DNA of 64,000 nucleotides, taken from assembly GCF_001559595.1 (NCBI RefSeq), contig NZ_LNTY01000034.1, forward strand, positions 124,001-188,000. The letters run 5' to 3'. The DNA comes from Enterovibrio coralii. Its GTDB lineage: Bacteria > Pseudomonadota > Gammaproteobacteria > Enterobacterales > Vibrionaceae. Positions 7,055-32,030 of the stretch are shown one piece after another. The notes below the pieces were generated by a model that worked only from the letters and a program-made list of their open reading frames with translations, was not told the DNA's origin and ran no database searches. How positions within the stretch are numbered: position 1 is the first letter of the stretch; the number at the start of each line of letters is the position of its first letter. Made by a program: the position numbers and the translations under genes.

Positions 7055-8050
7055 ATGACTCTTGATCGTCGACGCGGATATATTCGCTCCAGCGAACAGC
7101 CAGAAGATGTGCTGGAACGCTGGGAGTTGCCTAGCTATTCCTCCGGAAAACCCCAACCCAAAGATACTGCTCTCAACTACGATCCGAGTTGGGAGCCACC
7201 AGAGCTTGAAGAAGAGCAAGAGCCTCAAGTTGACCTTTCTATGCTCACCGCGGAAGTGCTTGAAGAGATCAGGCAAGCTGCGATGGAAGAAGGTCACGAG
7301 GAAGGTCGCGCTGCCGGCTTTGAAGAAGGCAAAGACGCCGGCTTTGAGGAAGGAAAGACCGAAGGCTTCGATACCGGTAAAACGGAAGGTTACGAGCAAG
7401 GACTTTCTGACGGACAGCAGCTTATCGAGGCGCGTTGTGGTCACCTAGATACAATGCTCTCTAAGCTGGCGTTTCCGATTGAACAAATTAATCATCAGGT
7501 CGAGCAACAGATGGTCGAGTTGGTGTTGCACCTTGCCAAATCTGTGATTCAAACAGAAGTGCAGACGAACCCACAAGTTATCTTGAACACGCTTCGTGAA
7601 GCTGTGAACGCTTTGCCAATGGCAGGTCGTCAGGTGACTATCTATTTGCACCCTGAAGACATGGACATTGTTACCTCCGCGCATTCGGTGGAGTCCCTTC
7701 GCGACCGCGAATGGCGTTTGATTGCTGAGCCATCGCTAAATCGTGGTGACATTCAAGTTGCATGTGGCGATTCGGTGGTGGATTACCGCATCGAAGACCG
7801 CATCTCCCAAGCGTTAAGTCGATTTGCAGGTCAGAACTTGAGCCGAGACCCAGAGCCAGCGGAAAATGATCCGGGTGCAGATGTGTTGTTAGGCGCAGAT
7901 AAAGTCGTGACCGACGACATGGTGAACCCTTCAAGCAACCAAACTGAATCCGACGTGTTTGCTCAAACTGATGAAGCGGACGCTGTATCTGTAGAAAGCG
8001 AACCACAACAAACCCAGCAATCAGGTGATCACGATGGTCAGCCTGTCTGA
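7055..8050 (+). CDS. fliH: Flagellar export apparatus stator protein FliH
   Basis: FliH binds and regulates the export ATPase FliI and tethers it to the C ring. At 331 residues it is longer than most family members. About residues 76-125 form the Gly-rich repeat typical of FliH, with successive GxxxG units such as [19 protein letters not shown]. The C-terminal FliH core follows (about 140-260). The last 60-70 residues are an acidic, low-complexity tail (D, E, S, Q) that looks like an extension. Its end overlaps the fliI start. The 46 bases between fliG and fliH hold no other gene. Confidence 0.92.
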
Positions 8051-9349
8051 ACGCCTCGCTGCACTCTCTACTGAAAATATTGGTGTTCGTCCTGTTGCGT
8101 CTGGCAAATTGGTGCGGGTTGTTGGCCTCACGCTTGAAGCGATTGGCTGTCGTGCGCCGATTGGCAGTCTGTGTAAAGTAGAAACCCTAAACGGCAGCAT
8201 AGAAGCTGAAGTCGTTGGTTTTTCAGGCGAAACCCTTTATCTCATGCCAAGTGAACAAATCTCTGGCGTACTGCCTGGCGCCCGTGTCACGCCGCTTTCT
8301 GGAGAGCAAGGGGTGCCTGTTGGTCTGGAATTGTTAGGCCGGGTCATCGATGGTGTGGGAAATCCCCTAGATGGCTTAGGCGACATCTTCACAGGGCAAA
8401 CTGCGTCATTCACGCCTGCTGCCATCAACCCACTGTCTCGAAAACCCATCGATACGCCATTGGATGTTGGCATCAAAGCCATTAATGGCTTGCTGACCGT
8501 GGGTAAAGGCCAACGTATCGGTTTGTTTGCCGGTTCCGGTGTCGGTAAATCGGTTACCCTTGGCATGATGACACGAGGCACAACGGCCCAAGTGGTTGTC
8601 GTTGGCTTGATTGGTGAGCGTGGACGCGAAGTTAAAGAATTCATCGATGAAATCTTGGGTAAGGAAGGGCGCGCACGCTCTGTGGTGATCGCGGCGCCGG
8701 CGGATGCGTCACCATTGATGCGCCTGAAAGGGTGTCAAACCGCCCTGACCATTGCCGAGTTCTTCCGAGACCAAGGTTTAGACGTTCTGCTGTTAATGGA
8801 CTCATTGACCGTTTTGCCCAAGCTCAGCGTGAAATTGCGCTATCTGTGGGTGAACCGCCAGCAACTAAAGGTTATCCACCTTCCGTGTTTGCCAAGCTGC
8901 CAGCCCTTGTTGAGCGCGCAGGCAATGGTGCAGAAGGGCAGGGGTCAATCACTGCATTCTTCACCGTATTAACCGAAGGTGATGATCTGCAAGACCCGAT
9001 TGCCGATGCGGCACGTGCGATTTTGGATGGCCATATCGTGCTTTCACGTGAAATGGCAGATGCGGGTCATTATCCTGCGATTGATGTTGAACGCTCGGTG
9101 AGCCGTGTTATGCCAAACATTGTCGACGATGAACACATGCTCATGTCGCGTGCCGTGCGGCAAATTCTCTCCGTCTGTCGTAAGAATCAGGACTTGGTGT
9201 CTATTGGTGCCTATAAACCGGGGACCGATCAGTCGATCGATCAGGCGTTTACTCTGAAACCGCGTATCGATGGCTATCTGCAACAAGGCATGAAAGACGT
9301 TGTGCCTTACGCCATGTGTGTCAACATGCTGCGCTCAACGCTTCAGTAG
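8034..9349 (+). pseudogene. fliI: Flagellum-specific ATP synthase FliI, interrupted by a one-base deletion (probable sequence error)
   Basis: FliI is the ATPase that energises unfolding and delivery of flagellar export substrates. The first frame is normal to LLLMDSLT near 8809. The continuation [20 protein letters not shown] is in the next frame: ACC-GTT should read ACC-CGT, so one C of a CCC run is missing at about 8809-8811. Restored length is about 439 residues, normal for FliI. Walker A is [11 protein letters not shown] and the Walker B region is LLLMDS. ATG 8034 is preferred over the in-frame GTG 8025; both overlap the end of fliH. Nothing else in the gene suggests decay. Confidence 0.93.
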
Positions 9350-9895: not shown

Positions 9896-11811
9896 ATGAC
9901 GCAAACCAGTTTCTTACTCTCAGGTATATCCAGCAATAAGGCGGCCGTTGGCGATGCCAAAGGTGCGGTTTCCCAAGATGTAACTGAAATTGAAGGTGAA
10001 GGCTTTTTTTCTAAGCTCTCTCAGCTTGTTGCGGGAGATGCCGAAACTGTTGACGGTAAGAAAGACGCTGCTCTGGAAGGTGGAGAAAGCGAAGAAGCAT
10101 TGAATGAGATGCTGACAAGTGCGTTGAAACCTGAAGAAACTGAAGGTGCCGAAAACTTGGCACTTGAGGGTGAAGAAATTGACGCTGACGGTGAAATTAG
10201 CACCGGCAGCGAAATCAAAGCAGACAAAACTGCGCTTTCAGAAGACGCGGCACTGTCTCTGAAAGCCGCAAATCCTGATGCGGAATCAGGTACAGCAGAG
10301 CGACAACTCGCTGCCAAGCAAGATGGTGAAGCTTGGTTGCAACGCTTGAACGAAGCCAACAGTGTACTCAAGCCACAGGCAGAGCACACGTTGGATGCGG
10401 AAACGGTTGTACTGAATACCGAAGGAAAAGCATTAGTCGGCAAAAGCTTGCCGTCAGACCAATCCGGTAGAGAACTGCTATCCACGGAAAGTCTCAATGC
10501 GAGTGTCCTGACAGCTTCATCTAGCCAAGATGCCTTGCCATTTACTTCGGTTGAACCTGCCTCTGTGGAAGAAGTGAAAGCGGTATTGGCAAGCGAAGGC
10601 ATTGATGTTTCTACGCTGTCTACCGCCGAATTGGAAACCATAGCCAAGATGGCGGTGGTACAAGATGTGACTGAACAGCAACTCAGTTCCTTTTCGCCAG
10701 AGCAGCAAGCCATTGATGCGGCGGCTGTGCGCGCGATAGCAATCAACAATGATGGTTCAGAGCGTCCAGATGCAACCGGGGCAGAGTTAGTGGCTGGCTC
10801 TGCGGAGGCTGGGCGTGTGTTAAGTAACGCGGCAATCGCGCAGACAGCAACAGTGACGGCTGACACCAAAGAAGCAGACCTGCTTGCTAAAGCGGGCGCA
10901 GAGACCTTGACTAAACCACAACAAGACGCTTGATGCGAGCGCAACTTGCCGCGCAAGCAGCGGGGACGGGCACCGATAAAACCGATGTTGCAGATATGCA
11001 GATGCGAGGCTTCGCCGCGCAATCACAAAGCGCACAAAATGGATTGAGCCAAGCAGCGAGTGCCGTTCAAGCCGCCGTAAATCCGCAGTTGCAACAACAA
11101 ACCCCTGCATCAGCATTTGCGGCGATCCCATGGACGCCAGCAGGTATGCAAAATAATGCACAACCGCAAGCCGCGGCAAGCTCTGCGGCATTAGAAGCGG
11201 CGACGGCACTGCAAATGACAGAGGCGTCACAAGCCAAGCCAGAAGTGAAAGCGGAGCATCTAGCCCAACAACTGGCGACGAGTTTTGGTAATACAAGCTC
11301 TACAACGGCCGCGCGATTAGACAATGCTGTCACACAGACACCACTTCAATTGAGCCAAAATCAGGCGGAAGCGGCGAATGCGCTGTCTGAAAAGGTCAAT
11401 ATGATGATGTCGAAGAACTTGAAGCATGTTGATATTCGCCTCGACCCACCAGAGCTTGGGCGTATGCAAATCAAATTATCGATGAACCAAGACCAAGCGT
11501 CAGTGCAGTTCACGGTAGCCAACCAAGCAGCACGAGATATGGTTGAACAAACCTTGCCAAGACTGCGTGAAATGATGCAGCAGCAAGGGCTTCAGCTGGC
11601 ACAATCTTCGGTGCAACAGCAAGATGCTGGCGGCAGACAAGCCTTTGCTGGCAGCCAATCACAGCAAGGTGATGGCCAAAATGGACAAGGCGGTCAAGAC
11701 GGATCTTCTCGGTTTGGTCGAAATGATGGTGACCACGAGATTGAAACTTCTTCAATCAATCGTGAGCTTTACGTCAATACATCAAAGGATCGTGTCGACT
11801 ATTATGCTTAA
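9896..11811 (+). pseudogene. fliK: Flagellar hook-length control protein FliK, interrupted by a one-base deletion (probable sequence error)
   Basis: FliK measures hook length and triggers the export specificity switch through FlhB. The first part (9896-10933) is a long, disordered, Ala/Glu/Ser-rich ruler region. The second (frame opening at 10930) is Gln/Ala-rich and ends in the conserved FliK C-terminal domain, KHVDIRLDPPELGRMQIKLS to VEQTLPRLREMMQQQGLQL. At about 10926 GACGCTTGATG should probably read GACGCTTTGATG, a T missing from a T run. Restored length is about 638 residues. A terminator hairpin begins at the stop codon. No perfect promoter is seen in the 89 bases before the gene. Confidence 0.9.
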
Positions 11812-15487: not shown

Positions 15488-16285
15488 ATGGAATACCCAG
15501 CAGAACTTATTCTCGATTGGATGGCCCAGTTTTTCTGGCCGTTGACGCGCATCTCATCAATGATGATGACGATGACCTTCTTCGGTGCGCGCTATGTGCC
15601 TGTTCGTGTGAGATTGTATCTGTCGTTGGCCATCACCTTTGCAGTTATGCCTGCTGTGCCAAAAGTGCCGGAATCGATAGAACTGCTGTCCTATGGCGGT
15701 TTTGTGGTTTTGGCGCAACAGATACTGATCGGCGTGGCGATGGGCACGGTCACTCAATTTGTTACCCAAACTTTCGTTCTGCTCGGTCAAATCATCGGTA
15801 TGCAATCGAGCTTAGGTTTCGCGTCCATGGTTGACCCAGCGAACGGTCAGAACACGCCCTTGCTTGGTCAGTTCTATCTTTTCGTTGCTACCATGTTGTT
15901 CCTCGCGACCGACGGGCACCTTCAAATGCTCAACCTTGTTGTCATGAGTTTTAAAAGTCTACCTATCGGAGAGATGCTGCAAGCTGCAGACTATCGGCTT
16001 ATCGCCAGTTGGTTTGGCATCATGTTCAGCGTCGCGCTGGGCATGGCGTTAGCGGGCATCATCGCGCTGCTGGTGGTTAATCTCTCGTTTGGTGTGATGA
16101 CCCGTGCTGCTCCGCAGTTAAACATCTTCTCGCTGGGTTTCTCCTTCGCACTGTTAGTGGGTCTTCTCATCAGCATGTATTTGCTGAGTGGTATCTTGCC
16201 GCATTACTTAAATCACTGGGAAACGGGTGTCGACACCATCTGTGACTTGATTCGTCTCGACTGCGCAACGGGCGGAGGTGCCTAA
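15488..16285 (+). CDS. fliR: Flagellar export gate protein FliR
   Basis: FliR is the single-copy subunit that closes the export pore. The 265 residues form about six hydrophobic segments; conserved pieces include FLATDGHLQMLNLVVMSFKS and the MTRAAPQLNIFSLGFSFALL motif. The stop overlaps the flhB start by one base (TAATG). Confidence 0.95.
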   Translation: MEYPAELILDWMAQFFWPLTRISSMMMTMTFFGARYVPVRVRLYLSLAITFAVMPAVPKVPESIELLSYGGFVVLAQQILIGVAMGTVTQFVTQTFVLLGQIIGMQSSLGFASMVDPANGQNTPLLGQFYLFVATMLFLATDGHLQMLNLVVMSFKSLPIGEMLQAADYRLIASWFGIMFSVALGMALAGIIALLVVNLSFGVMTRAAPQLNIFSLGFSFALLVGLLISMYLLSGILPHYLNHWETGVDTICDLIRLDCATGGGA

Positions 16286-17418
16286 TGGCAGAGAACGACG
16301 GTCAAGAACGTACAGAAGACGCCACGCCCCGAAGGCGGCAGCAGGCGCGGGAGAAAGGTCAGGTACCGCGCTCAAGAGAACTGGCATCCGTTGCTGTGCT
16401 CGTGGTAGGCGCAGTCGCGCTGATGTGGTTTGGTGAAGGTCTGGGTGTGGCGTTGATGGAAATCATGCGCAAGTTCTTCACCCTTACCCGAGACGAAATT
16501 TTTGACGTCACAACGCTAGGGTTGATTACCTATGGCGCGATTTTCCATATCGCGTGGCCACTGACGCTGGTGCTCACCATGCTATTCGTGGCGGGGCTTA
16601 TTGGCGCGTCTGCGCTTGGCGGCGTGTCGTTTTCTTGGGAAGCTGCGCGTCCTAAGCTATCAAAAATGAGCCCGCTCCAAGGCATTAAGCGCATGTTTGG
16701 CAAACAAAGCTGGGTTGAGCTTATCAAGTCGATCTTGAAAGTGGCCTTGGTGTCTGGCGTGGCGTTTTATTTGATGTGGGCCAGTTTGGAAGACTTCTTC
16801 CAGCTAAACATCGAGACGTTCCCAACCAATCTGTACCACGCCTTAGATATTCTCCTGAACTTCGTCCTGCTGATTTGCTGTTCCTTGTTGGTCGTGGTGG
16901 CGATTGATGTGCCATTCCAGATCTGGCAGCACAATGAACAGCTAAAAATGACTAAGCAAGAAATCAAAGATGAATACAAAGAAACCGAAGGTAAGCCTGA
17001 AGTGAAAGGGCGGATCCGCATGTTGCAACGTGAGATGGCGCAGCGCCGGATGATGTCTGAAATCCCGTCGGCTGACGTAATCATTACCAACCCGGAACAC
17101 TACTCGGTTGCGCTGCGCTACGACAGCAAAATCGACCGTGCTCCCATAGTGGTAGCGAAAGGTACTGACTTTTTGGCGTTGAAAATACGGGAGATTGCCG
17201 CTGAGCATGACATTACGATCGTGCCAGCACCACCACTTGCCCGTGCGGTCTATTTCAGCACAGAACTTGAGCAACAAATTCCTGACGGCCTGTTCGCTGC
17301 CGTCGCTCAGTTGTTAGCATACGTCTTCCAGCTCAAACAATACAAAAAAGGCCGGGGCCGGAAACCGAAATCCTTGGTTGACCAACAAATGCCCATACCG
17401 CCAGAATTACGTCACTAA
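16285..17418 (+). CDS. flhB: Flagellar export switch protein FlhB
   Basis: FlhB controls the switch from rod/hook to filament export by autocleavage in its cytoplasmic domain. The 377 residues have the N-terminal motif GQERTEDATPRRRQQAREKG, four membrane segments, and the cytoplasmic domain with ADVIITNPEHYSVALRYD. The cleavage motif normally written NPTH reads NPEH here (AAC CCG GAA CAC). Asn and Pro, which carry the cleavage chemistry, are kept. It is the last gene before the flhA promoter. Confidence 0.95.
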   Translation: MAENDGQERTEDATPRRRQQAREKGQVPRSRELASVAVLVVGAVALMWFGEGLGVALMEIMRKFFTLTRDEIFDVTTLGLITYGAIFHIAWPLTLVLTMLFVAGLIGASALGGVSFSWEAARPKLSKMSPLQGIKRMFGKQSWVELIKSILKVALVSGVAFYLMWASLEDFFQLNIETFPTNLYHALDILLNFVLLICCSLLVVVAIDVPFQIWQHNEQLKMTKQEIKDEYKETEGKPEVKGRIRMLQREMAQRRMMSEIPSADVIITNPEHYSVALRYDSKIDRAPIVVAKGTDFLALKIREIAAEHDITIVPAPPLARAVYFSTELEQQIPDGLFAAVAQLLAYVFQLKQYKKGRGRKPKSLVDQQMPIPPELRH

Positions 17419-17521: not shown

Positions 17522-19626
17522 ATGAAGCTCTCTTTGCCGTTTTACGACAAGGTCCAAGACAAAATCCCGTTTAAACGCGGTGGTGCGTTCCCAGCGATCG
17601 GTGCGCCGTTGCTGGTATTGTCGACATTGGCGATGGTGGTATTGCCAATGCCGGCGGTGCTGCTTGACTTGATGTTCTCATTCAACATCGCTTTGTCTTT
17701 GGTTGTGCTTCTGGTAACGGTATACACCCGCAGACCGCTCGATTTCGCGGCATTCCCGACCGTCCTTCTTATTGCCACCTTAATGCGTTTGGCATTGAAC
17801 GTTGCTTCTACCCGTGTGGTTCTGCTCAATGGCCATGAAGGCCCGGGCGCGGCCGGTGAGGTTATTGAAGCGTTCGGTTCGGTCGTTATCGGTGGTAACT
17901 ACGCCGTTGGTCTGGTCGTGTTCCTTATCTTGATGATCATTAACTTTATGGTTGTTACCAAGGGTGCGGGCCGTATTTCTGAGGTAAGCGCACGTTTCAC
18001 CCTTGATGCATTGCCAGGTAAGCAAATGGCCATCGATGCGGACTTGAACGCCGGTTTGATCAACCAAGAACAAGCCCGTACTCGCCGACAAGAAGTCACC
18101 AAAGAAGCTGACTTTTACGGTTCGATGGACGGTGCGTCTAAGTTCGTAAAAGGGGATGCCATCGCCGGTATCCTTATCCTTGTGATCAACATCGTGGGCG
18201 TCTCATCATCGGTATGGTGCAGCACGGCCTGACGTTCTCTGACGCTATCGAGATTTATGTTCTGCTGACTATCGGTGATGGTCTAGTCGCGCAAATTCCA
18301 TCGCTGTTGCTGTCTATCGGCGCGGCGATCATGGTAACCCGTCAAAACACCGATGAAGACATGGGTCAGCAGTTGGTGTTCCAGCTGGTGGATAATCCGA
18401 AAGCACTGATCATCTCGACGGGCATCTTGTTTGTAATGGGTATCGTCCCGGGCATGCCGCATATTCCTTTCCTGACGCTCGCTTTGATTTGTGGTGGCTT
18501 CGCCTACTGGAAAACAAAACAAGTCGAAAAAGCCAAAATTGCCGCCGAGGAAGCCCCGCAACAAGAACTGGCACCGCCGAAACCAAAAGAGCTTTCTTGG
18601 GACGACGTACAGCCTGTCGATGTCATTGGTTTGGAAGTGGGTTATCGCCTGATTCCTATGGTTGACCGAGACCAAGGTGGTGAGCTGCTTGATCGCGTGA
18701 AAGGGGTGCGTAAGAAGCTATCTCAAGACTTTGGCTTCCTTGTACCGCCAGTACATATCCGCGACAACCTTGAACTGCCACCAAACAGTTACCGCATTAC
18801 TTTGATGGGCGTGGCAGTCGGCGAAGCGGATATTCGCCCTGACAAGGAATTGGCGATTAACCCTGGTCAAGTTTTCGGCCCAATTGACGGTGAAGGTACT
18901 GTCGATCCGGCCTTTGGTCTGGAAGCAGTTTGGATTGAAAAATCCCAGCGCGAACATGCGCAAGCACTCGGCTACACCGTGGTGGATTCTGCCACTGTAC
19001 TGGCAACGCATTTGAGTCAGATGCTGACCAACAACGCAGAACGTTTACTGGGCCACGAAGAAGCACAGAACCTGATTGATATGCTGGCGAAACAAGCACC
19101 GCGTCTGGTGGAAGGCCTAATCCCTGATTTGGTTTCGCTGGGTGTGGTAGTGAAAGTGATGCAGAACCTGCTTAACGAAGCTATCCCAATTCGTGATGTT
19201 CGAACCATCATTCAGACCCTGTCTGAGTACGCGCCGAAGAGTCAAGATCCCGACATCCTCACTGCGGCTGTACGTATTTCACTCAAGCGTCTAATCGTTC
19301 AAGAAATCAATGGTATAGCTCCTGAGCTGCCAGTGATTACATTGGTGCCTGAATTGGAACAGATATTGCATAAAACTATGCAAGCATCGGGTGGTGAATC
19401 GACGGGTATTGAACCTGGATTGGCTGAGCGATTACAGCAAAGTTTGTCTGAAGCAACACAGCAGCAAGAGCTGCAAGGCGAACCAGCCGTTCTTCTCACT
19501 TCTGGCGTATTACGTTCCACGCTTGCCAAGTTTGTGAAGAACACCATCCCATCCCTGCGCGTCCTGTCTTATCAGGAAGTGCCGGATGAAAAACAAATAA
19601 GAATTGTAAGAGCAGTTGGCAACTGA
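17522..19626 (+). pseudogene. flhA: Flagellar export protein FlhA, interrupted by a one-base deletion (probable sequence error)
   Basis: FlhA forms the cytoplasmic ring of the export gate that docks chaperone-substrate complexes and uses proton motive force. The N-terminal membrane part runs to [12 protein letters not shown] near 18199. The continuation [20 protein letters not shown] is in the next frame: GTGGGCGTCTC should read GTGGGCGGTCTC, one G missing. Restored length is about 701 residues, normal. The N-terminal half has about eight membrane segments with the conserved loop [20 protein letters not shown]. The C-terminal half is the soluble platform (VHIRDNLELPPNSYRITLMG). Confidence 0.94.
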
Positions 19627-21286: not shown

Positions 21287-22166
21287 GACAACCATGCATG
21301 ATCAAGCAAGCGGCCTCCGCCGCCTGACAAACCCGACTCGCACAAAAGTAATAACCGTCACTGGTGGTAAGGGCGGTGTAGGTAAAACCAACATTACGTT
21401 GGGTATTGCTGCGTCAATGGCTAAGCAAGGCAAAAAGGTCATGGTACTGGATGCCGATTTAGGCTTGGCGAACGTCGATGTGCTGTTGGGCCTGCGTGTG
21501 GGTAAAAACCTGAGCCATGTTATGCAAGGCGAGTGCGATCTGAAGGACATCATCGTTGAAGGTCCTCATGGTATGCGCATTATTCCTGCGTCTTCCGGTA
21601 TGCGTGGCATGACCGAACTGACACCTGCGCAACACGCGGGCTTGATTCGCGCGTTTGGTACGCTGGACGAAGACGTTGACGTGCTGTTGGTTGATACGGC
21701 GGCGGGTATCTCAGACATGGTTCTGAGTTTTTCTCGTGCCGCGCAAGATGTATTGATCGTGGTATGTGATGAGCCTACTTCCATCACAGATGCCTACGCG
21801 TTAATCAAGCTCCTAAGCCGTGAGCACGGTGTCACTCGATTCAAAGTCGTTGCAAATATGGTCAGAAGTTACCGCGAGGGTCGAGATTTATTCACAAAAT
21901 TAACTCGGGTAACAGAAAGATTTTTAAATGCTAATCTAGAATTAGTAGCATGTGTCCCATTAGATGAACGTGTGCGTCAATCTGTGAAGAAGCAAAAAGT
22001 GGTTGTAGATGCGTTTCCAAAGGCTCCAGCTGCACTTGCTCTTAACGCATTGGCAAACAAAGCACTAACGTGGCCAGTGCCTAGAAACCCGGGTGGGCAT
22101 TTAGAGTTTTTCGTAGAACGATTGCTCGTCCGAGACGAAGTGACGGGAGATTATCTCGGTGAATAG
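21279..22166 (+). CDS. flhG: Flagellar number regulator FlhG (FleN/MinD-like ATPase)
   Basis: FlhG limits polar flagellar number by opposing FlhF and restraining FlrA activity. The 295 residues include a deviant Walker A KGGVGKTN, the LDADLGLANVDVLLGL switch and DTAAGISDMV. They end in an amphipathic C-terminal membrane-targeting helix (LEFFVERLL). ATG 21279 gives a family-like N-terminus with HDQASGLRRL; an in-frame upstream start at 21246 would only extend into flhF. It overlaps fliA by eight bases. Confidence 0.94.
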   Translation: MIETTMHDQASGLRRLTNPTRTKVITVTGGKGGVGKTNITLGIAASMAKQGKKVMVLDADLGLANVDVLLGLRVGKNLSHVMQGECDLKDIIVEGPHGMRIIPASSGMRGMTELTPAQHAGLIRAFGTLDEDVDVLLVDTAAGISDMVLSFSRAAQDVLIVVCDEPTSITDAYALIKLLSREHGVTRFKVVANMVRSYREGRDLFTKLTRVTERFLNANLELVACVPLDERVRQSVKKQKVVVDAFPKAPAALALNALANKALTWPVPRNPGGHLEFFVERLLVRDEVTGDYLGE

Positions 22167-22881
22167 GACGCTCACCTACAGTAGGAGTGGCGCATCAACG
22201 GAAACAGTGTTTGAGCAATATTCGACGTTAGTTAAGCGGATTGCTCATCATTTGATTTCACGTTTGCCTCCTAATGTACAGGTAGAAGATCTTATTCAAG
22301 CAGGCATGGTTGGTTTGCTTGAAGCGCAGCAAAACTACGACCCTTCAAAAGGGGCGAGTTTTGAAACGTATGCGGGCATCCGTATTCGTGGAGCGATGCT
22401 CGACGACATTCGCAAAGGCGATTGGGTGCCAAGATCGGTACATAAAAACAACCGCCAGATCAGCGAAGTGATTTCGCAACTGGAAGGTGAGTTGGGCAGA
22501 GACCCAAACGACAAAGAGATTGCAAAGCGTTTAGGAATGAGCTTGGACCAATATTACCAAGCGCAAAATGACATCAACGCAGGGCGTTTGATTGGCATCG
22601 AAGACCTAGGCGTTTCAGAAGATGCTTTCATGACTGAAAGTCATCGCGACGAAAATCTTCCCTTTGAGGAAGTCGCCGAAGATAGTTTTAAGGGTCATTT
22701 GGCCAATGCTATCCGAGGACTTCCTGAAAGAGAGGCTTTGGTTCTCTCTCTCTACTACGATGAGGAACTTAACCTCAAAGAGATAGGGGCCATTATTGGG
22801 GTTAGCGAATCCCGAGTTTGCCAGATTCAAAATCAGGCAATGCAGCGGTTACGGACCAAGCTATCCGCTTGGTCAAAGTAA
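22159..22881 (+). CDS. fliA: RNA polymerase sigma-28 factor FliA
   Basis: FliA transcribes late flagellar genes (alternative flagellins, motor proteins, anti-sigma FlgM). The 240 residues have region 2 (ARIRGAMLDDIRKGDW-type segment GIRIRGAMLDDIRKGDWVPR), region 3 and a region 4 helix-turn-helix (LKEIGAIIGVSESRVCQIQN). Start is GTG 22159, overlapping flhG. Position after flhG is standard. Confidence 0.95.
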   Translation: MNRTLTYSRSGASTETVFEQYSTLVKRIAHHLISRLPPNVQVEDLIQAGMVGLLEAQQNYDPSKGASFETYAGIRIRGAMLDDIRKGDWVPRSVHKNNRQISEVISQLEGELGRDPNDKEIAKRLGMSLDQYYQAQNDINAGRLIGIEDLGVSEDAFMTESHRDENLPFEEVAEDSFKGHLANAIRGLPEREALVLSLYYDEELNLKEIGAIIGVSESRVCQIQNQAMQRLRTKLSAWSK

Positions 22882-27393: not shown

Positions 27394-28173
27394 GTGATAG
27401 TCTGGAGCATTGCAAACCAGAAAGGGGGCGTGGGGAAAACAACCACAACGATTACCCTTGCTGGGCTTCTCAGCGAAAAGAACAAGCGTGTATTGTTGAT
27501 CGACACCGATCCTCACGCTTCGCTGACGACCTATCTGAATTACGATTCGGAGAAGTTGTCACATACCCTGTTTGATTTATTTCAGCTTCAGACCATTAAC
27601 CGTGACACGGTTAAGCCCCTTATCCTGAAAACCGAATACAAAAACCTCGATTTGTTGCCTTCACATATGTCGTTGGCAACGCTAGATCGCGCAATGGGAA
27701 ACCGAGGTGGCATGGGCTTGATGTTGAAAAAAACATTGGCCTGCCTCGAAGGCGAATATGACTACGCACTCATTGACTGTCCACCAATTTTGGGCGTGAT
27801 GATGGTGAATGCGCTGGCTGCAAGCAATCGTATTCTTATCCCTGTTCAAACCGAGTTCCTCGCGATGAAAGGCTTGGAGCGTATGGTGCGCACGTTGCAA
27901 ATCATGCAGAAGTCGAGAAGCTCTGCATTCAAGGTTTGCATCATTCCGACCATGTACGACAAGCGCACGCGCGCCTCTCTTGAGACGTTGCAAGAACTGA
28001 AAGTGCGTTATCCCGACCAGGTTTGGACATCTGCGGTTCCGATTGATACTAAATTCCGTGATGCGAGCTTGAAGCACATGCCGCCATCGTATTACGCGAA
28101 AAATTGTCGTGGCGTCTTTGCATATAAAACGCTGCTCTCTTATTTGGAGCGACTCGAACAGGATGAAAGATAG
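27394..28173 (+). CDS. parC: ParA-like ATPase ParC, chemotaxis array positioning
   Basis: ParC is the ParA/MinD-family ATPase that positions chemotaxis arrays at the old pole in vibrios, through HubP and ParP. The 259 residues have a deviant Walker A (NQKGGVGKTTTTITL), switch I LIDTDPHASLT and switch II ALIDCPPILG. It is not a chromosome ParA: there is no N-terminal DNA-binding extension and no parB, and it sits between cheB and parP. Start GTG 27394 has AGGAG upstream. Confidence 0.92.
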   Translation: MIVWSIANQKGGVGKTTTTITLAGLLSEKNKRVLLIDTDPHASLTTYLNYDSEKLSHTLFDLFQLQTINRDTVKPLILKTEYKNLDLLPSHMSLATLDRAMGNRGGMGLMLKKTLACLEGEYDYALIDCPPILGVMMVNALAASNRILIPVQTEFLAMKGLERMVRTLQIMQKSRSSAFKVCIIPTMYDKRTRASLETLQELKVRYPDQVWTSAVPIDTKFRDASLKHMPPSYYAKNCRGVFAYKTLLSYLERLEQDER

Positions 28174-29269
28174 CCGTGCCGTGTCCAGTGTTCAGGCATT
28201 GGATGATTACTTTGATGCGCTGTTGGATGAAGATGAACATCCCCAGTTAGCAGACACGGATGCTGAGCCACTATTAACGGATGCAGCACTGGATGTTGCA
28301 CCCCAATTAAAAGCTGTCGCAATGGAGCCCGTTGAGAAATTCAGCGGCGCGACACTGACAAAAGAACAACGCGACTTGTCTTCAGTCGAAAAGCTGCTCA
28401 GTCAATTGCAGCTTGATGAAGACATGGAAGTGGAAGTGGAAGTGGTGGAAACCACAGAAACAATGGTGGAGACACAAACTGACATTGAAGTGTCAGTGGC
28501 GGTTGAAACCGAGCTAGAAACACATGTCGAAACGCTCACTGACGTTGCTGTAGAGCAAGACGTCGTGGTTGAGACGGAAGTTGTCGAAGCTGTTGACACT
28601 GAAGTGGCTATTGAGACCGAAACGGTGCTTGAAGAGCCGCAAGTGATAGAAGAGCTTGCAACTGAAACGCTAGAAGCGGAAGCGGTTTACGTTGAAGAAA
28701 CCGTGACGGTTGAAGAAGAGGTCGTTGTTGATGCGACGTCCGACGTTGATACCGATACCGAGATGGAAACCGAAAGTGCGGTCGAAGAAGAGACGTCACC
28801 GCCATGGAAAAACATCGTTCCTGAACATGGCTTTCAGGTGTTGTTTTTCGAATCTTTCGGTGTGACATATGCGGTACCACTGGCAGAACTCGGTGGTATT
28901 CACAAGCTAGAAGAGTGCAATCACCTGATCGGTCGCCCAGATTGGTATTTGGGCTTACAGACCGAACGTGAGCAGCAACTCGATGTGGTGGATACCGCGA
29001 AATGGGTGATGCCAGAAAAAATAACAGATAACAGCCATCGCGACGGCTATAGTTATATTGTGCTCTTGGGTGACAGTAAATGGGGCTTGGCTTGCAACGC
29101 TCTACTAGGGACAGAATCACTCAATGGCGAACAAGTGCGATGGCGTGAGCAAGCAGGTAAACGACCTTGGCTCGCAGGATTGGTAAAACAGAAAATGTGT
29201 GCACTGATCCATGTAGAGGCGTTGGTTACCATGCTTAATCAAGGTATTGATGCCAATGCGTTGGCGTAG
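28163..29269 (+). CDS. parP: ParP, CheW-domain protein linking ParC and CheA
   Basis: ParP holds chemotaxis arrays at the pole by binding ParC and CheA. ATG 28163 overlaps the parC end by 11 bases. Residues 1-85 are acidic. About residues 88-212 are a low-complexity tract made almost only of Val, Glu and Thr (for example VVETEVVEAVDTEVAIETET). The C-terminal domain from about 225 is CheW-like (GFQVLFFESFGVTYAVPLAE, ending LIHVEALVTMLNQ). The linker's composition is unusual. The N-terminal boundary of a ParC-binding part cannot be placed from sequence. Confidence 0.88.
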   Translation: MKDSRAVSSVQALDDYFDALLDEDEHPQLADTDAEPLLTDAALDVAPQLKAVAMEPVEKFSGATLTKEQRDLSSVEKLLSQLQLDEDMEVEVEVVETTETMVETQTDIEVSVAVETELETHVETLTDVAVEQDVVVETEVVEAVDTEVAIETETVLEEPQVIEELATETLEAEAVYVEETVTVEEEVVVDATSDVDTDTEMETESAVEEETSPPWKNIVPEHGFQVLFFESFGVTYAVPLAELGGIHKLEECNHLIGRPDWYLGLQTEREQQLDVVDTAKWVMPEKITDNSHRDGYSYIVLLGDSKWGLACNALLGTESLNGEQVRWREQAGKRPWLAGLVKQKMCALIHVEALVTMLNQGIDANALA

Positions 29270-29293: not shown

Positions 29294-29782
29294 ATGTCTC
29301 AGGTAGCTGAAGTCCAAAAAGAAAACGTGAATGACGAGGTCCTGCAGTGGGTGACCTTCCAGCTGGAAGACGAAACCTATGGCATTAATGTCATGCAGGT
29401 GCGAGAAGTATTGCGCTATACCGAAATTGCCCCTGTACCCGGTGCGCCGGATTATGTACTTGGCATCATTAACCTTCGCGGTAATGTTGTTACGGTTATC
29501 GACACGCGCTCCCGTTTCGGTCTGATGCAGGGTGAAGTAACGGATAACACGCGTGTTATCGTTATCGAAGCTGAATCTCAGGTTATCGGCATCATGGTCG
29601 ATAGCGTTGCTGAAGTGGTTTACCTCAAAACCTCTGAAATCGATACCACACCAAGCGTGGGTACTGACGAAAGCGCGAAGTTTATTCAAGGCGTAAGCAA
29701 CCGCAACGGTAACCTGTTGATCCTGGTTGATCTGAATAAACTGCTCTCTGACGAAGAGTGGTCTGATATGGCCATGCTGTAA
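29294..29782 (+). CDS. cheW: Chemotaxis coupling protein CheW
   Basis: CheW couples receptors to CheA. The 162 residues form one CheW domain (WVTFQLEDETYGINVMQVRE, then PDYVLGIINLRGNVVTVIDT and NRNGNLLILVDLNKLL). It is preceded by GAGGAAA and ends in a TAATG overlap with fipA. Confidence 0.95.
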   Translation: MSQVAEVQKENVNDEVLQWVTFQLEDETYGINVMQVREVLRYTEIAPVPGAPDYVLGIINLRGNVVTVIDTRSRFGLMQGEVTDNTRVIVIEAESQVIGIMVDSVAEVVYLKTSEIDTTPSVGTDESAKFIQGVSNRNGNLLILVDLNKLLSDEEWSDMAML

Positions 29783-30207
29783 TGCTCGAGAGCGTGTTGT
29801 ACTGGTTGCCGCTAGGGATAAGCTTATTCGTAGCGGCAATTGCGCTTGTATTATGGCGACGCGAAAAGAAAGCAATCGCGCAGCTTGAAGCAAAATGTCA
29901 GGCCATGGAGCTGTTGTTGAAAAACGCACGACAGCAACATGAAAGCCTTAGTAAACAGTTTAATGAGCTGCGTGCGGGTTCTATTGGTATGAGCCAAAAG
30001 CTGGCTGAGCTTTCCCATCGTTTCGATGATTTGATGGAAAAGCAGCATGAGCTTGAAATGCACGACCAAGATGGCAGGCTTTACTCTCGTGCCAGTAAGA
30101 TGGTGGAGTTAGGGGCTGACATCAATGAGCTGATGGAAGAGTGCGATCTTCCTAAAGCCGAAGCAGAGCTGCTTCTTAGCATAAGAAAACAGAGAATGAT
30201 GCGTTAA
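29782..30207 (+). CDS. fipA: DUF2802 protein, FipA-type polar FlhF recruitment factor
   Basis: FipA proteins are DUF2802 membrane proteins of polar flagellates that help bring FlhF to the pole. The 141 residues have one N-terminal membrane segment (about 6-25), a coiled coil (30-95) and the DUF2802 domain SKMVELGADINELMEECDLP KAEAELL. Residues G111, E127 and L130 appear to align with positions reported as essential in Vibrio FipA, as far as I recall them. It is the last gene of the chemotaxis run, coupled to cheW. The function is from family knowledge; the domain identification is firm. Confidence 0.85.
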   Translation: MLESVLYWLPLGISLFVAAIALVLWRREKKAIAQLEAKCQAMELLLKNARQQHESLSKQFNELRAGSIGMSQKLAELSHRFDDLMEKQHELEMHDQDGRLYSRASKMVELGADINELMEECDLPKAEAELLLSIRKQRMMR

Positions 30208-30235: not shown

Positions 30236-30529
30236 CTACACTTTCTGATTGACGACTGACCCCTCCCAACCTGGAGGGGTTTTTCCATCTAGGTACCAAG
30301 CAAACGCAATAAGTTCTGCAATCACTAGGTAGAGAGCTTCAGGTATCTCATCTCCCACTTCAAGCGCAGACAGCCACTGCATCAAGGTTTCATCACTGTG
30401 GATGAGCCCGCCTTGCTTTTCCATTTCCTCTATTAGCTTCTCAGCCAATGCCTCATAGCCTTTGGCTGAAACATGTGGCGCGTTTACACCATCGTATTTG
30501 AGTGCAACGGCACTTTTTGCTTTCTTCAT
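30236..30529 (-). CDS. Stand-alone FlhB C-terminal-domain protein (FhlB/FlhX-like)
   Basis: This 97-residue protein matches only the part of FlhB that remains after autocleavage. Its start KSAVALKYDGVNAPHVSAKG aligns with the HYSVALRYDSKIDRAPIVVA stretch just behind the cleavage site of the flhB in this window. The rest, GDEIPEALYLVIAELIAFAW, resembles IPDGLFAAVAQLLAYVFQL. It has no membrane segments. ATG 30529 overlaps the stop of the upstream FliK-like gene (ATGA), so the two are translationally coupled. Similar stand-alone domains are known in epsilonproteobacteria (FlhX) and in other polar flagellates. Its role here is unknown; interaction with the export gate is inference. Confidence 0.85.
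   Translation of the reverse strand: MKKAKSAVALKYDGVNAPHVSAKGYEALAEKLIEEMEKQGGLIHSDETLMQWLSALEVGDEIPEALYLVIAELIAFAWYLDGKTPPGWEGSVVNQKV
30260..30284 (+). terminator. Intrinsic terminator after fipA
   Basis: CCCCTCC and GGAGGGG pair around CAACCT and are followed by five T. The hairpin lies inside the 3' end of the convergent FlhB-domain gene, so its bases are shared. Confidence 0.82.
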
Positions 30530-31293
30530 ACTTGGATATTCAACCCCGTGTGGATGGTTGCTTCTGGCTGCGTAGGTGTTGTTATCACCTCGCACGAGGT
30601 GACGCTAATACTGTGTTTGGAGAGTTGCGCTTCCAACACCGGCTGCGATTTTTCTACCAATTGCTTTAACGCGTCAGAGTCCGTTGAAAAGCTTAAGTCC
30701 AATTGCTGGTCTTCAAGTTCAGCGGTTGCGGTTAATTGCCTGTTGTTTGACAGCGTCAGATTGACGCTGACACTCCAACGAGATTTTTTCCGTATCTTCG
30801 GGGTCTTTTTCTTCACGGAGACCTCGACTTTCGTTTGCTCTGTTGTGCCAAAACAAAATAGCCAGGTGAACTCTCCTGGTTTGGTTGCGTCAGTCTGAAA
30901 ACGCTGCTCTGCCAAAAGCTGGATAGCAGCCTTCAAAGAAGAGGACTCGTCGCTCTCAGTGCGTTGCCGGAGAAGTGTCAGTGCCTCGATCAACGCTTTG
31001 TCTGGTTGCCTTTCCGCTAGCCATTTGGCGAGGAGCGCTGGGTCTTTGGGCGCAATGAGATTATTGAGTAAAACGTGAAGGGGAGACGACGCATCTTGTT
31101 TACTGGCGATTCGATACAGCGAGGGAAACACATTGAGTAACTGTAGAAGCTGCGAAAGTTGAGAAAATTGTTTGGTATTCAGGGAACTGTTAGCGGTTTC
31201 TGTTTGTCCGAGCTTAACCAACTCTTTGAGGCCATTGTTTTGGATGAGAGCCAGCGTTAGTGCGTTGATGTTTCCTGTGTTATCGATTTTCAT
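30526..31293 (-). CDS. FliK-like protein with hook-length-control C-terminal fold
   Basis: The 255-residue protein has no clear signal peptide. Its middle is helical and Leu-rich. The C-terminal third (WSVSVNLTLSNNRQLTATAE, then DLSFSTDSDALKQLVEKSQP) follows the strand-strand-helix pattern of the FliK C-terminal domain, which in FliK reads MQIKLSMNQDQASVQFTVAN then ARDMVEQTLPRLRE. It lacks FliK's long ruler and the PPELG motif. It is coupled to the FlhB-domain gene, the same functional partners as FliK and FlhB. The assignment rests on pattern and partner, so it is moderate. It is transcribed away from ccmA. Confidence 0.65.
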   Translation of the reverse strand: MKIDNTGNINALTLALIQNNGLKELVKLGQTETANSSLNTKQFSQLSQLLQLLNVFPSLYRIASKQDASSPLHVLLNNLIAPKDPALLAKWLAERQPDKALIEALTLLRQRTESDESSSLKAAIQLLAEQRFQTDATKPGEFTWLFCFGTTEQTKVEVSVKKKTPKIRKKSRWSVSVNLTLSNNRQLTATAELEDQQLDLSFSTDSDALKQLVEKSQPVLEAQLSKHSISVTSCEVITTPTQPEATIHTGLNIQV

Positions 31294-31415: not shown

Positions 31416-32030
31416 ATGCTAGAAGTGCGTCAACTCAGCTGTATTCGTGATGAGCGAGTGCTGTTTGAAGACCTCAATTTCACGGTGTCTACGGGTGACC
31501 TCGTTCAAATTGAAGGCCCAAATGGGGCAGGAAAAACAACCCTTTTGCGCATTATTGCGGGGCTAGGGTTAGCTGAGTCGGGAGACGTGCTTTGGCAGGG
31601 CGAAAGTGTTAATCGCGCACGAGACGAGTTTTACAGTGATTTGCTGTTTTTAGGCCATAGTACAGGCGTAAAACGCGAGCTGACAGCATTCGAAAACCTG
31701 GCGTTCTATCAAAAAATGCACGGTAGTGCTGACAAAGATAAGTTGTGGGACGCACTGGCACGTGTTGGCCTTGCGGGGCGTGAGGATGTTGCTGCGGCGC
31801 AGTTATCAGCAGGACAAAATCGTCGCGTTGCACTGGCAAGACTTTGGATCAGCGAAGCGAAGCTTTGGGTACTCGATGAGCCGCTCACTGCGATTGATAA
31901 GCAAGGCGTGAAAGTATTGGAAAATTTGTTCCAGCAGCACGTGGATAACGGTGGCATGGTGTTGTTTACCACGCACCAAGACATGTTTGTCGACAACGCG
32001 AATCTGCGTCGCATTAAACTGGGGGCGTAA
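31416..32030 (+). CDS. ccmA: Heme exporter ATP-binding protein CcmA
   Basis: CcmA is the ABC ATPase that releases holo-CcmE for cytochrome c maturation. The 204 residues show Walker A GPNGAGKTT, signature LSAGQNRRVALARL and Walker B LWVLDEP. It is the first gene of a complete ccmABCDEFGHI operon and overlaps ccmB by one base. In Vibrio the ccm operon also follows the chemotaxis cluster. Confidence 0.96.
   Translation: MLEVRQLSCIRDERVLFEDLNFTVSTGDLVQIEGPNGAGKTTLLRIIAGLGLAESGDVLWQGESVNRARDEFYSDLLFLGHSTGVKRELTAFENLAFYQKMHGSADKDKLWDALARVGLAGREDVAAAQLSAGQNRRVALARLWISEAKLWVLDEPLTAIDKQGVKVLENLFQQHVDNGGMVLFTTHQDMFVDNANLRRIKLGA

Follow-up and report, generated by a model that had tools for sequence, protein, structure and literature searches.

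We found an overlapping pair of minus-strand genes in the 64,000-nucleotide stretch of Enterovibrio coralii DNA analyzed here (the window), of which the first encodes a 255-residue protein with a FliK domain and the second a 97-residue stand-alone FlhB C-terminal domain; the two proteins are called FliK2 and FlhX-like, respectively. The FliK-FlhB switch is a textbook example of a self-measuring machine that afterwards alters what it exports, and its models come largely from Salmonella. In many swimming bacteria, such a pair seems to represent a second control on the hook-to-filament export switch that has gone unnoticed.

Identity and structure of the fliK2-flhX pair

The fliK2 gene extends from position 31293 to 30526, and its product carries a C-terminal FliK/type III substrate-switch domain, identified by PF02120 and by the top Foldseek matches 2rrl and 5cuk. 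The Pfam search gave a score of 34.8 bits against PF02120 (cut-off of 29.8), with the core domain at residues 169-236 (30586..30789, minus strand). The C-terminal tail GLNIQV (30529..30546, minus strand), which is equivalent to the last residues of FliK, has no aromatic residue at -2. The flhX-like gene runs from an ATG at 30529 to 30236, and the two genes share a 4-bp ATGA stop/start overlap (30526..30529, minus strand). The flhX-like product lacks the NPxH motif and scored 41.3 bits against PF01312 (cut-off of 24.4) at profile positions 262-334 of 335; the last fifth of this FlhB profile alone was matched, and the membrane domain of full FlhB is absent. The Pfam matches and the ATGA overlap confirmed that the pair is real, namely a FliK-domain gene overlapping a gene for a stand-alone FlhB C-domain on the minus strand, as the preliminary description had claimed. 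Its statement that the FlhB part begins at about the cleavage point also held.

The open reading frame list offered an alternative GTG start for flhX-like at 30595, which would give 119 aa. The 97-aa form was preferred because seven congeners (L018-L024) have this form, with the ATG as the first possible start. The protein scored 63 bits against TIGR00789 (flhB_rel), below the curated cut-off of 117.35, and the name "FlhX-like" was chosen because this cut-off was missed; the members from P. aeruginosa and B. velezensis scored 72.7 and 123, respectively.

The AlphaFold2 model of FliK2 had a modest pLDDT of 64.4. The best two of its 711 Foldseek matches in the PDB were the FliK C-terminal domain (2rrl) and the PscP substrate-switch domain (5cuk), each with a probability of 1.00 but with weak E-values of 6e-3 and 4e-2, respectively, from a model with a pLDDT of 64. 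Additionally, the FliK2 profile found 2rrl by sequence (E of 0.0014). The 34 best Foldseek matches of the FlhX model (pLDDT of 74.9) were all FlhB/SctU C-domains, and it lay 1.8-2.1 Å from 3b1s/3b0z. The preliminary description had tied its reading to a structural likeness between FliK2 and FliK and to the co-occurrence of the pair with flagella; the first is suggested by the two best matches, weak as their E-values are, and the second is seen in the 49 genomes, among 143 gammaproteobacterial genomes searched, that hold the pair together with FlhA.

Other flagellar genes of the genome and ancestry of FliK2

The window also contains a complete polar flhB (16285..17418, plus strand) with the NPEH and R-x-x-Y motifs and a sigma factor gene with regions 2, 3 and 4, probably fliA (22159..22881, plus strand). 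A complete flhB alongside the pair had been described previously, and so had a complete fliK; the polar fliK (9896..11811, plus strand) is in fact divided here into two frames (9896-10933 and 10930-11811), while it is a single frame of 615-682 aa in 12/12 congeners. We also observed that fliI (8025-9349), fliK (9896-11811) and flhA (17522-19626), all on the plus strand, are each spread over two overlapping frames in the record; either indels in the assembly or a decaying polar system may be responsible. In the whole genome, PF01312 and PF02120 each gave three matches above the cut-off, belonging to the polar system, the pair and a set on another contig; the FlhB and FliK of that contig were taken for a lateral system. 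An extra sub-threshold PF01312 piece adjoins the lateral FlhB, a sign that a frame change affects this gene as well.

To place FliK2 among its relatives, a tree was built from 75 switch domains: 22 of FliK, including the polar and lateral proteins of this genome, 39 of FliK2 from other families and 14 of Vibrionaceae FliK2. All 22 FliK domains were split from the 53 FliK2 domains by a branch with an SH-aLRT of 100 (root unknown), in a quick search on a short, divergent domain in which 43 of 72 inner branches were weak. The Vibrionaceae FliK2 formed a long branch with a weak link to the remaining FliK2. A recent duplication of the genome's own fliK was considered as the source of FliK2 and rejected, as the tree did not support it and BLASTP gave no useful alignment between FliK2 and the polar FliK.

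Distribution and linkage of the pair

The profiles of FlhX (A1) and PF02120 were both run on one set of 143 gammaproteobacterial genomes, in which every genome listed represents a different family. The profile search revealed an FlhX-like gene in 52 of the 143. A PF02120 gene with the same orientation lay 5' of flhX, no more than 800 nt away, in 52/52 and within 153 nt of the domain in 51/52; the exception (G176) had a gap of 471 nt and no FliK2 frame reaching FlhX. A further FliK was present in 49 of the 52 genomes with the pair (one in 47 and two in 2) and was not found in three (G094, G158 and G159). Another 21 genomes had a PF02120 gene without the pair, with a single match each, and 70 had neither, so that 73 genomes of the sample have a FliK-domain gene and 52 of them carry the pair.

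The pair and FlhA were found together in 49 genomes, the pair alone in 3, FlhA alone in 23 and neither in 68. FlhA was thus present in 49/52 genomes with the pair and in 23/91 without it (Fisher p of 9e-17, which is not a clean probability, as the genomes are related). Flagella can do without the pair, because 23 of the 72 genomes with FlhA lack it. The three genomes with the pair and without FlhA were G094 (one contig), G139 (81% complete) and G158 (a 560-contig draft that has FlhB). In G094, the region C1:2593225-2594061 holds a FliK-domain gene and an FlhX match in two pieces, and the genome has no FlhA and no full FlhB; this pair is perhaps the relic of a lost flagellum.

In the window, the divergent neighbor of the pair is an ABC ATPase gene that occupies the ccmA position (31416..32030, plus strand), and the convergent neighbor is a DUF2802 gene (29782..30207, plus strand) at the end of a parA-cheW-cheW cluster. 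One member of this region (28109-29269, plus strand) encodes a 386-aa CheW-like protein whose CheW domain is preceded by a long acidic stretch rich in Val and Glu. On this side of the pair, a match to the window cheW was found in 15 of 40 loci, to the long cheW-like gene in 13, to parA in 10 and to DUF2802 in 10, each time convergent as in the window. A ccmA match was found in 2 loci, and many loci gave no match to these neighbors. A role of the pair outside the flagellum would fit its absence from the 23 genomes with FlhA and the ccm genes among its neighbors. We consider such a role highly improbable in view of the co-occurrence with FlhA, measured though it was on related genomes, the chemotaxis genes that several families have as convergent neighbors, and the two-piece FlhX of G094, which looks as if it were decaying where FlhA and full FlhB are missing.

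The wide flanks of 40 of the 52 loci were examined, and the FliK2 frame ended adjoining FlhX in 39 of them. These upstream frames, all from other families, were 385-716 aa long in 38 of the 39 loci, the 39th being cut by the end of its contig, while the Vibrionaceae FliK2 ORFs were mostly 252-286 aa. The term "mini-versions" used in the preliminary description therefore applies to a trait of Vibrionaceae and not to the pair in general. The size of FliK2 bears on whether FlhX might be an escort dedicated to an exported FliK2, for example a second ruler, without touching the gate. The linkage and the 4-bp overlap of fliK2 and flhX would suit an escort, and the frames of other families are long enough for a ruler, but most Vibrionaceae FliK2 ORFs are short, and FlhX keeps the FlhB fold and the presumed pocket positions described below; we regard a dedicated escort as very unlikely.

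Five FlhX matches lay in long open frames (385-775 aa), and a fusion of FliK2 with FlhX was considered for them; no fusion was present among the four that were read. In three of these (L050, L061 and L072), the frame before the FlhX start was low-complexity read-through, and FliK2 lay in another frame; G121 has a separate FliK2 frame (L136), and the fifth case is G122 (385 aa). Plasmid carriage was likewise considered and rejected. The plasmid collection gave 0 FliK2 matches; FlhX matched in 10 of its records, several of them megabase-sized.

Among Vibrionaceae, FliK2 was matched in 32 genomes, and the locus was obtained for 30. Since flhX adjoined fliK2 in 30/30 of these loci, the pairing is beyond chance. 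FlhX was present in 35 of 61 Vibrionaceae genomes and absent from 26. It occurred in 10/12 genomes of genus g1, 10/11 of g7, 8/8 of g9 and 7/7 of g4, g5, g6, g8 and g13 together, and it was found in 0/10, 0/10 and 0/3 genomes of g10, g12 and g2 with g3 and g11, respectively. We also found that FlhX is absent from G002 and G021, the two smallest genomes of the genus to which the window belongs. The absences in g10, g12, G002 and G021 are probably separate losses, and these may be the reason why the pair was overlooked in work on vibrios. The pair is not specific to vibrios; in this survey, many other families carry it and a good part of the Vibrionaceae genomes do not.

Elsewhere in the phylum, TIGR00789 was matched in 129 of 150 genomes, a count that includes full FlhB. 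Among the best 30 of these loci, an upstream match to the FliK2 model, which is gammaproteobacterial, was found in 17 and none in 13. The frame before the FlhX-like gene matched the FliK2 model with an E of 1e-12 in Cupriavidus and 5e-5 in Acetoanaerobium (small database). In B. velezensis, the gene before the FlhB-like gene (L167:2280-3983) is annotated as a "glycosyl transferase", overlaps it by 4 bp and ends in VDVKI. This 567-aa partner had no FliK match in Pfam, and hhalign gave it probabilities of 1.2 with FliK2 of other families, 4.6 with FliK and 12.3 with Vibrionaceae FliK2; 30 shuffles compared with the profile of FliK2 from other families reached 0.8 at most.

Residue changes in both partners

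We set 70 FlhX-like proteins (69 distinct), of which 30 came from Vibrionaceae and 40 from other families, against 21 FlhB C-domains (20 fetched and that of the window). The NPxH cleavage motif was present in 21/21 FlhB and in 0/70 FlhX-like proteins, and the same distribution was found for the R-x-x-[YF] motif that precedes the conserved IP loop of the Tyr323 region (21/21 and 0/70). Alignment position 53 is Leu in 70/70 FlhX-like proteins and Tyr (19) or Phe (2) in FlhB, with the reservation that FlhX has one residue fewer than FlhB in this region, so that the alignment may be shifted by one position; Tyr occurs at position 54 in 1/70 FlhX-like proteins. Other positions were kept: Pro18 and Ala71 in 70/70, with Ile or Leu at position 74 in 70/70. 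These residues align with Pro287, Ala341 and Leu344 of Salmonella FlhB, which we take to be part of the export-signal pocket. A hydrophobic pocket is spoken of, without residue names, in the accessible part of PMC8983047.

The FliK tails also differed. Tyr or Phe stands at -2 in 21/21 FliK that do not adjoin FlhX (20 fetched and the polar FliK of the window), whereas an aromatic residue occurred at this position in 0/65 FliK2 (39 from other families and 26 of the 30 Vibrionaceae loci; one ambiguous letter). This signature comes from the present comparison and not from a paper, and it is not absolute, as the lateral FliK of the same genome also lacks the aromatic residue. FliK2 has a hydrophobic residue at -5 in 38/39 proteins of other families and 25/26 of Vibrionaceae, and its last residue is Ala, Val or Ile in 39/39 and 25/26, respectively.

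The changed positions have been linked to switching elsewhere. In Salmonella FliK, the last five residues matter for switching, according to the accessible part of PMC10965912. In Xanthomonas, the accessible part of PMC3040844 describes HrcU Y318D, with which late secretion is active without the FliK-like protein HpaC and HpaC binding is abolished; the equivalent alleles YscU Y317D and FlhB Y323D are reported there to suppress the loss of yscP and fliK. By alignment, both partners of the second pair are changed from those of the first at sites tied to switching, and we infer that the changed sites in FlhX and FliK2 touch each other. The preliminary description likened the FlhB part to the cleaved fragment made separately. 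This holds for its start; because the residues tied to switching differ from those of the FlhB fragment, FlhX is an altered copy rather than a plain cleaved fragment.

These changes also weigh on a simpler explanation, that FlhX backs up the FlhB C-fragment and FliK2 is a back-up switch protein, with no regulatory role of their own. HP1575 of Helicobacter is reportedly called, in the title of Wand et al. (2006), a "spare part" permitting export when the FlhB C-domain is deleted, and the presumed pocket positions are kept in FlhX. The accessible part of PMC3040844 states that the HrcU C-fragment functions in trans, which also favors a back-up. One would expect a plain back-up, however, to retain the residues of the switch, while R-x-x-[YF] is missing from every FlhX and the aromatic residue at -2 from every FliK2 compared; this explanation seems to us possible but on the improbable side.

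Promoter-like sites upstream of fliK2

A FliA (sigma-28)-like promoter, TAAAG-N14-CCCGATAA, i.e. TAAAGTAA-N11-CCCGATAA, lies at 31396-31370 on the minus strand, 76 nt upstream of fliK2. The site is the sole exact match in the 64 kb to TAAAG-N14-SCCGATAA, a pattern that was written after the site was seen, with C or G left open at one base. It agrees with 13 of 16 positions of the consensus, a score that two other sites in the window also reach; within 300 nt, a score of 13 had a chance of 0.002 in shuffles. No sigma-70 site and no convincing sigma-54 site were found upstream of fliK2.

We then searched for a 12-position FliA pattern upstream of other pairs. At a threshold of at least 10 positions, it was found in 11 of 29 Vibrionaceae regions (one of the 30 loci was left out), against 0 in the antisense direction and 0.58 in shuffles. 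The sites were concentrated by genus, with 9/10 loci in g1, 2/2 in g6 and 0/17 in the others. In the other families (37 regions, with two of the 39 left out for short flanks), at least 10 positions were matched in 9 regions, against 4 antisense and 0.67 in shuffles, and at least 11 in 6 regions, against 1 and 0.03; at a threshold of at least 9, sense (17) and antisense (15) were alike. Going by these sites, the pair is likely to be expressed late here, and plausibly so in certain other lineages, but not in general.

The type of promoter matters for the possibility that the pair is a decoy or brake, with FlhX titrating FliK or FliK2 occupying FlhB, such that switching would be delayed or cancelled and hook length tuned or rod-hook export allowed again. 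Duplicates without a working motif can be competitors. FliK2 lacks the conserved aromatic residue in the tail region that is needed for switching according to the accessible part of PMC10965912. A brake would nevertheless be expected to be expressed early, and the promoter-like sites, where seen, are of the late (FliA) type; furthermore, FlhX lacks the tyrosine whose change abolished HpaC-HrcU binding in the accessible part of PMC3040844. We judge a decoy or brake to be unlikely.

Proposed role of the pair

The reading that we prefer is that the genes encode a second specificity-switch pair, in which FlhX acts in trans at the gate in a switched-like state with FliK2 as its partner after completion of the hook; we give it somewhat less than an even chance. 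FlhX would be a pre-made, non-cleavable C-fragment of FlhB that works in trans on the FlhB membrane part and/or on FlhA. FliK2 would be its matching switch-domain protein, as suggested by the linkage and the shared domain. The loss of the Arg/Tyr pair around Tyr323, together with the changed FliK2 tail, suggests a rewired interface with FlhX switched-like. This "switched" state is an analogy, because Leu and not Asp is found at the Tyr323 position. With expression driven by a FliA-type promoter in this clade, the pair would act after the first switch, stabilizing or re-setting filament-mode export. The behavior of HrcU Y318D, which does not bind its own FliK-like protein, speaks against a conventional mode of binding between FlhX and a FliK-type ligand.

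A broader form of this proposal covers the many gammaproteobacterial families with the pair (52 of the 73 genomes with a FliK domain). There, a naturally "pre-switched" FlhX that does not depend on cleavage and a rewired FliK2, driven by FliA after the hook in at least some lineages, would form a second gate checkpoint and replace the cleaved fragment of FlhB to lock or re-set the gate for the filament; in this breadth, the proposal is doubtful. If these genomes and P. aeruginosa carry a second pair of different construction, the standard picture of the switch leaves out a component in many bacteria. The altered residues of FlhX and FliK2 also offer a direct test of how the FlhB Tyr323 region and the last residues of FliK cooperate.

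Comparison with known systems

FlhX itself is known. The accessible parts of PMC9321776 and PMC10746217 count it as a part of flagellar export in Campylobacterota and Actinobacteria, and it is listed for C. jejuni and Leptospira in those of PMC4894983 and PMC4758666, respectively; the accessible part of PMC9321776 also names "flhX-fliK" for Nitratiruptor. The accessible part of a review of Pseudomonas flagella (PMC8036289) does not show the second pair, and no functional study of the pair was found in the literature searched, which covered little subscription material. As far as that literature goes, the pair has an annotation but no explanation, and neither the promoter nor the altered residues of the two partners have been described before.

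A close counterpart is a P. aeruginosa locus, in a record deposited as a plasmid, that encodes WP_003083123.1 and WP_003083121.1. These are annotated as "flagellar hook-length control protein FliK" and "EscU/YscU/HrcU family ... switch protein", respectively, and no study of this pair was found in the literature searched. The locus resembles that of the window in its gene order, 4-bp overlap, divergent ccmA and a FliA-like site of the same type (11/12 positions), whereas its FliK2 has 492 aa, unlike the 255 aa of the window. The FlhX/HP1575-type proteins (TIGR00789) are likewise stand-alone FlhB C-domains that begin at the cleavage point and occur alongside full FlhB, and the B. velezensis member overlaps the preceding gene by 4 bp, as in the window. 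In contrast, the protein of the window scores under the TIGR00789 cut-off and is tied to a FliK-domain gene, a combination that the literature searched names a single time, for Nitratiruptor.

Compared with the C-terminal fragment of FlhB, the FlhX of the window has the same fold and presumed pocket positions, but it is a separate chain without the membrane part, NPxH and R-x-x-[YF]. FliK and FliK2 share the PF02120 core domain and, in nearly all cases, the hydrophobic residue at -5 and the Ala, Val or Ile end; FliK2 differs in its separate branch, its missing aromatic residue at -2, its link to FlhX and its length here (255 aa, compared with 615-682 aa for the polar FliK of congeners). Finally, the tyrosine missing from FlhX is the one lost in HrcU Y318D, YscU Y317D and FlhB Y323D, as described in the accessible part of PMC3040844. 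These suppressor alleles place a laboratory Asp in a full-length protein, whereas FlhX carries a natural Leu in a separate chain.
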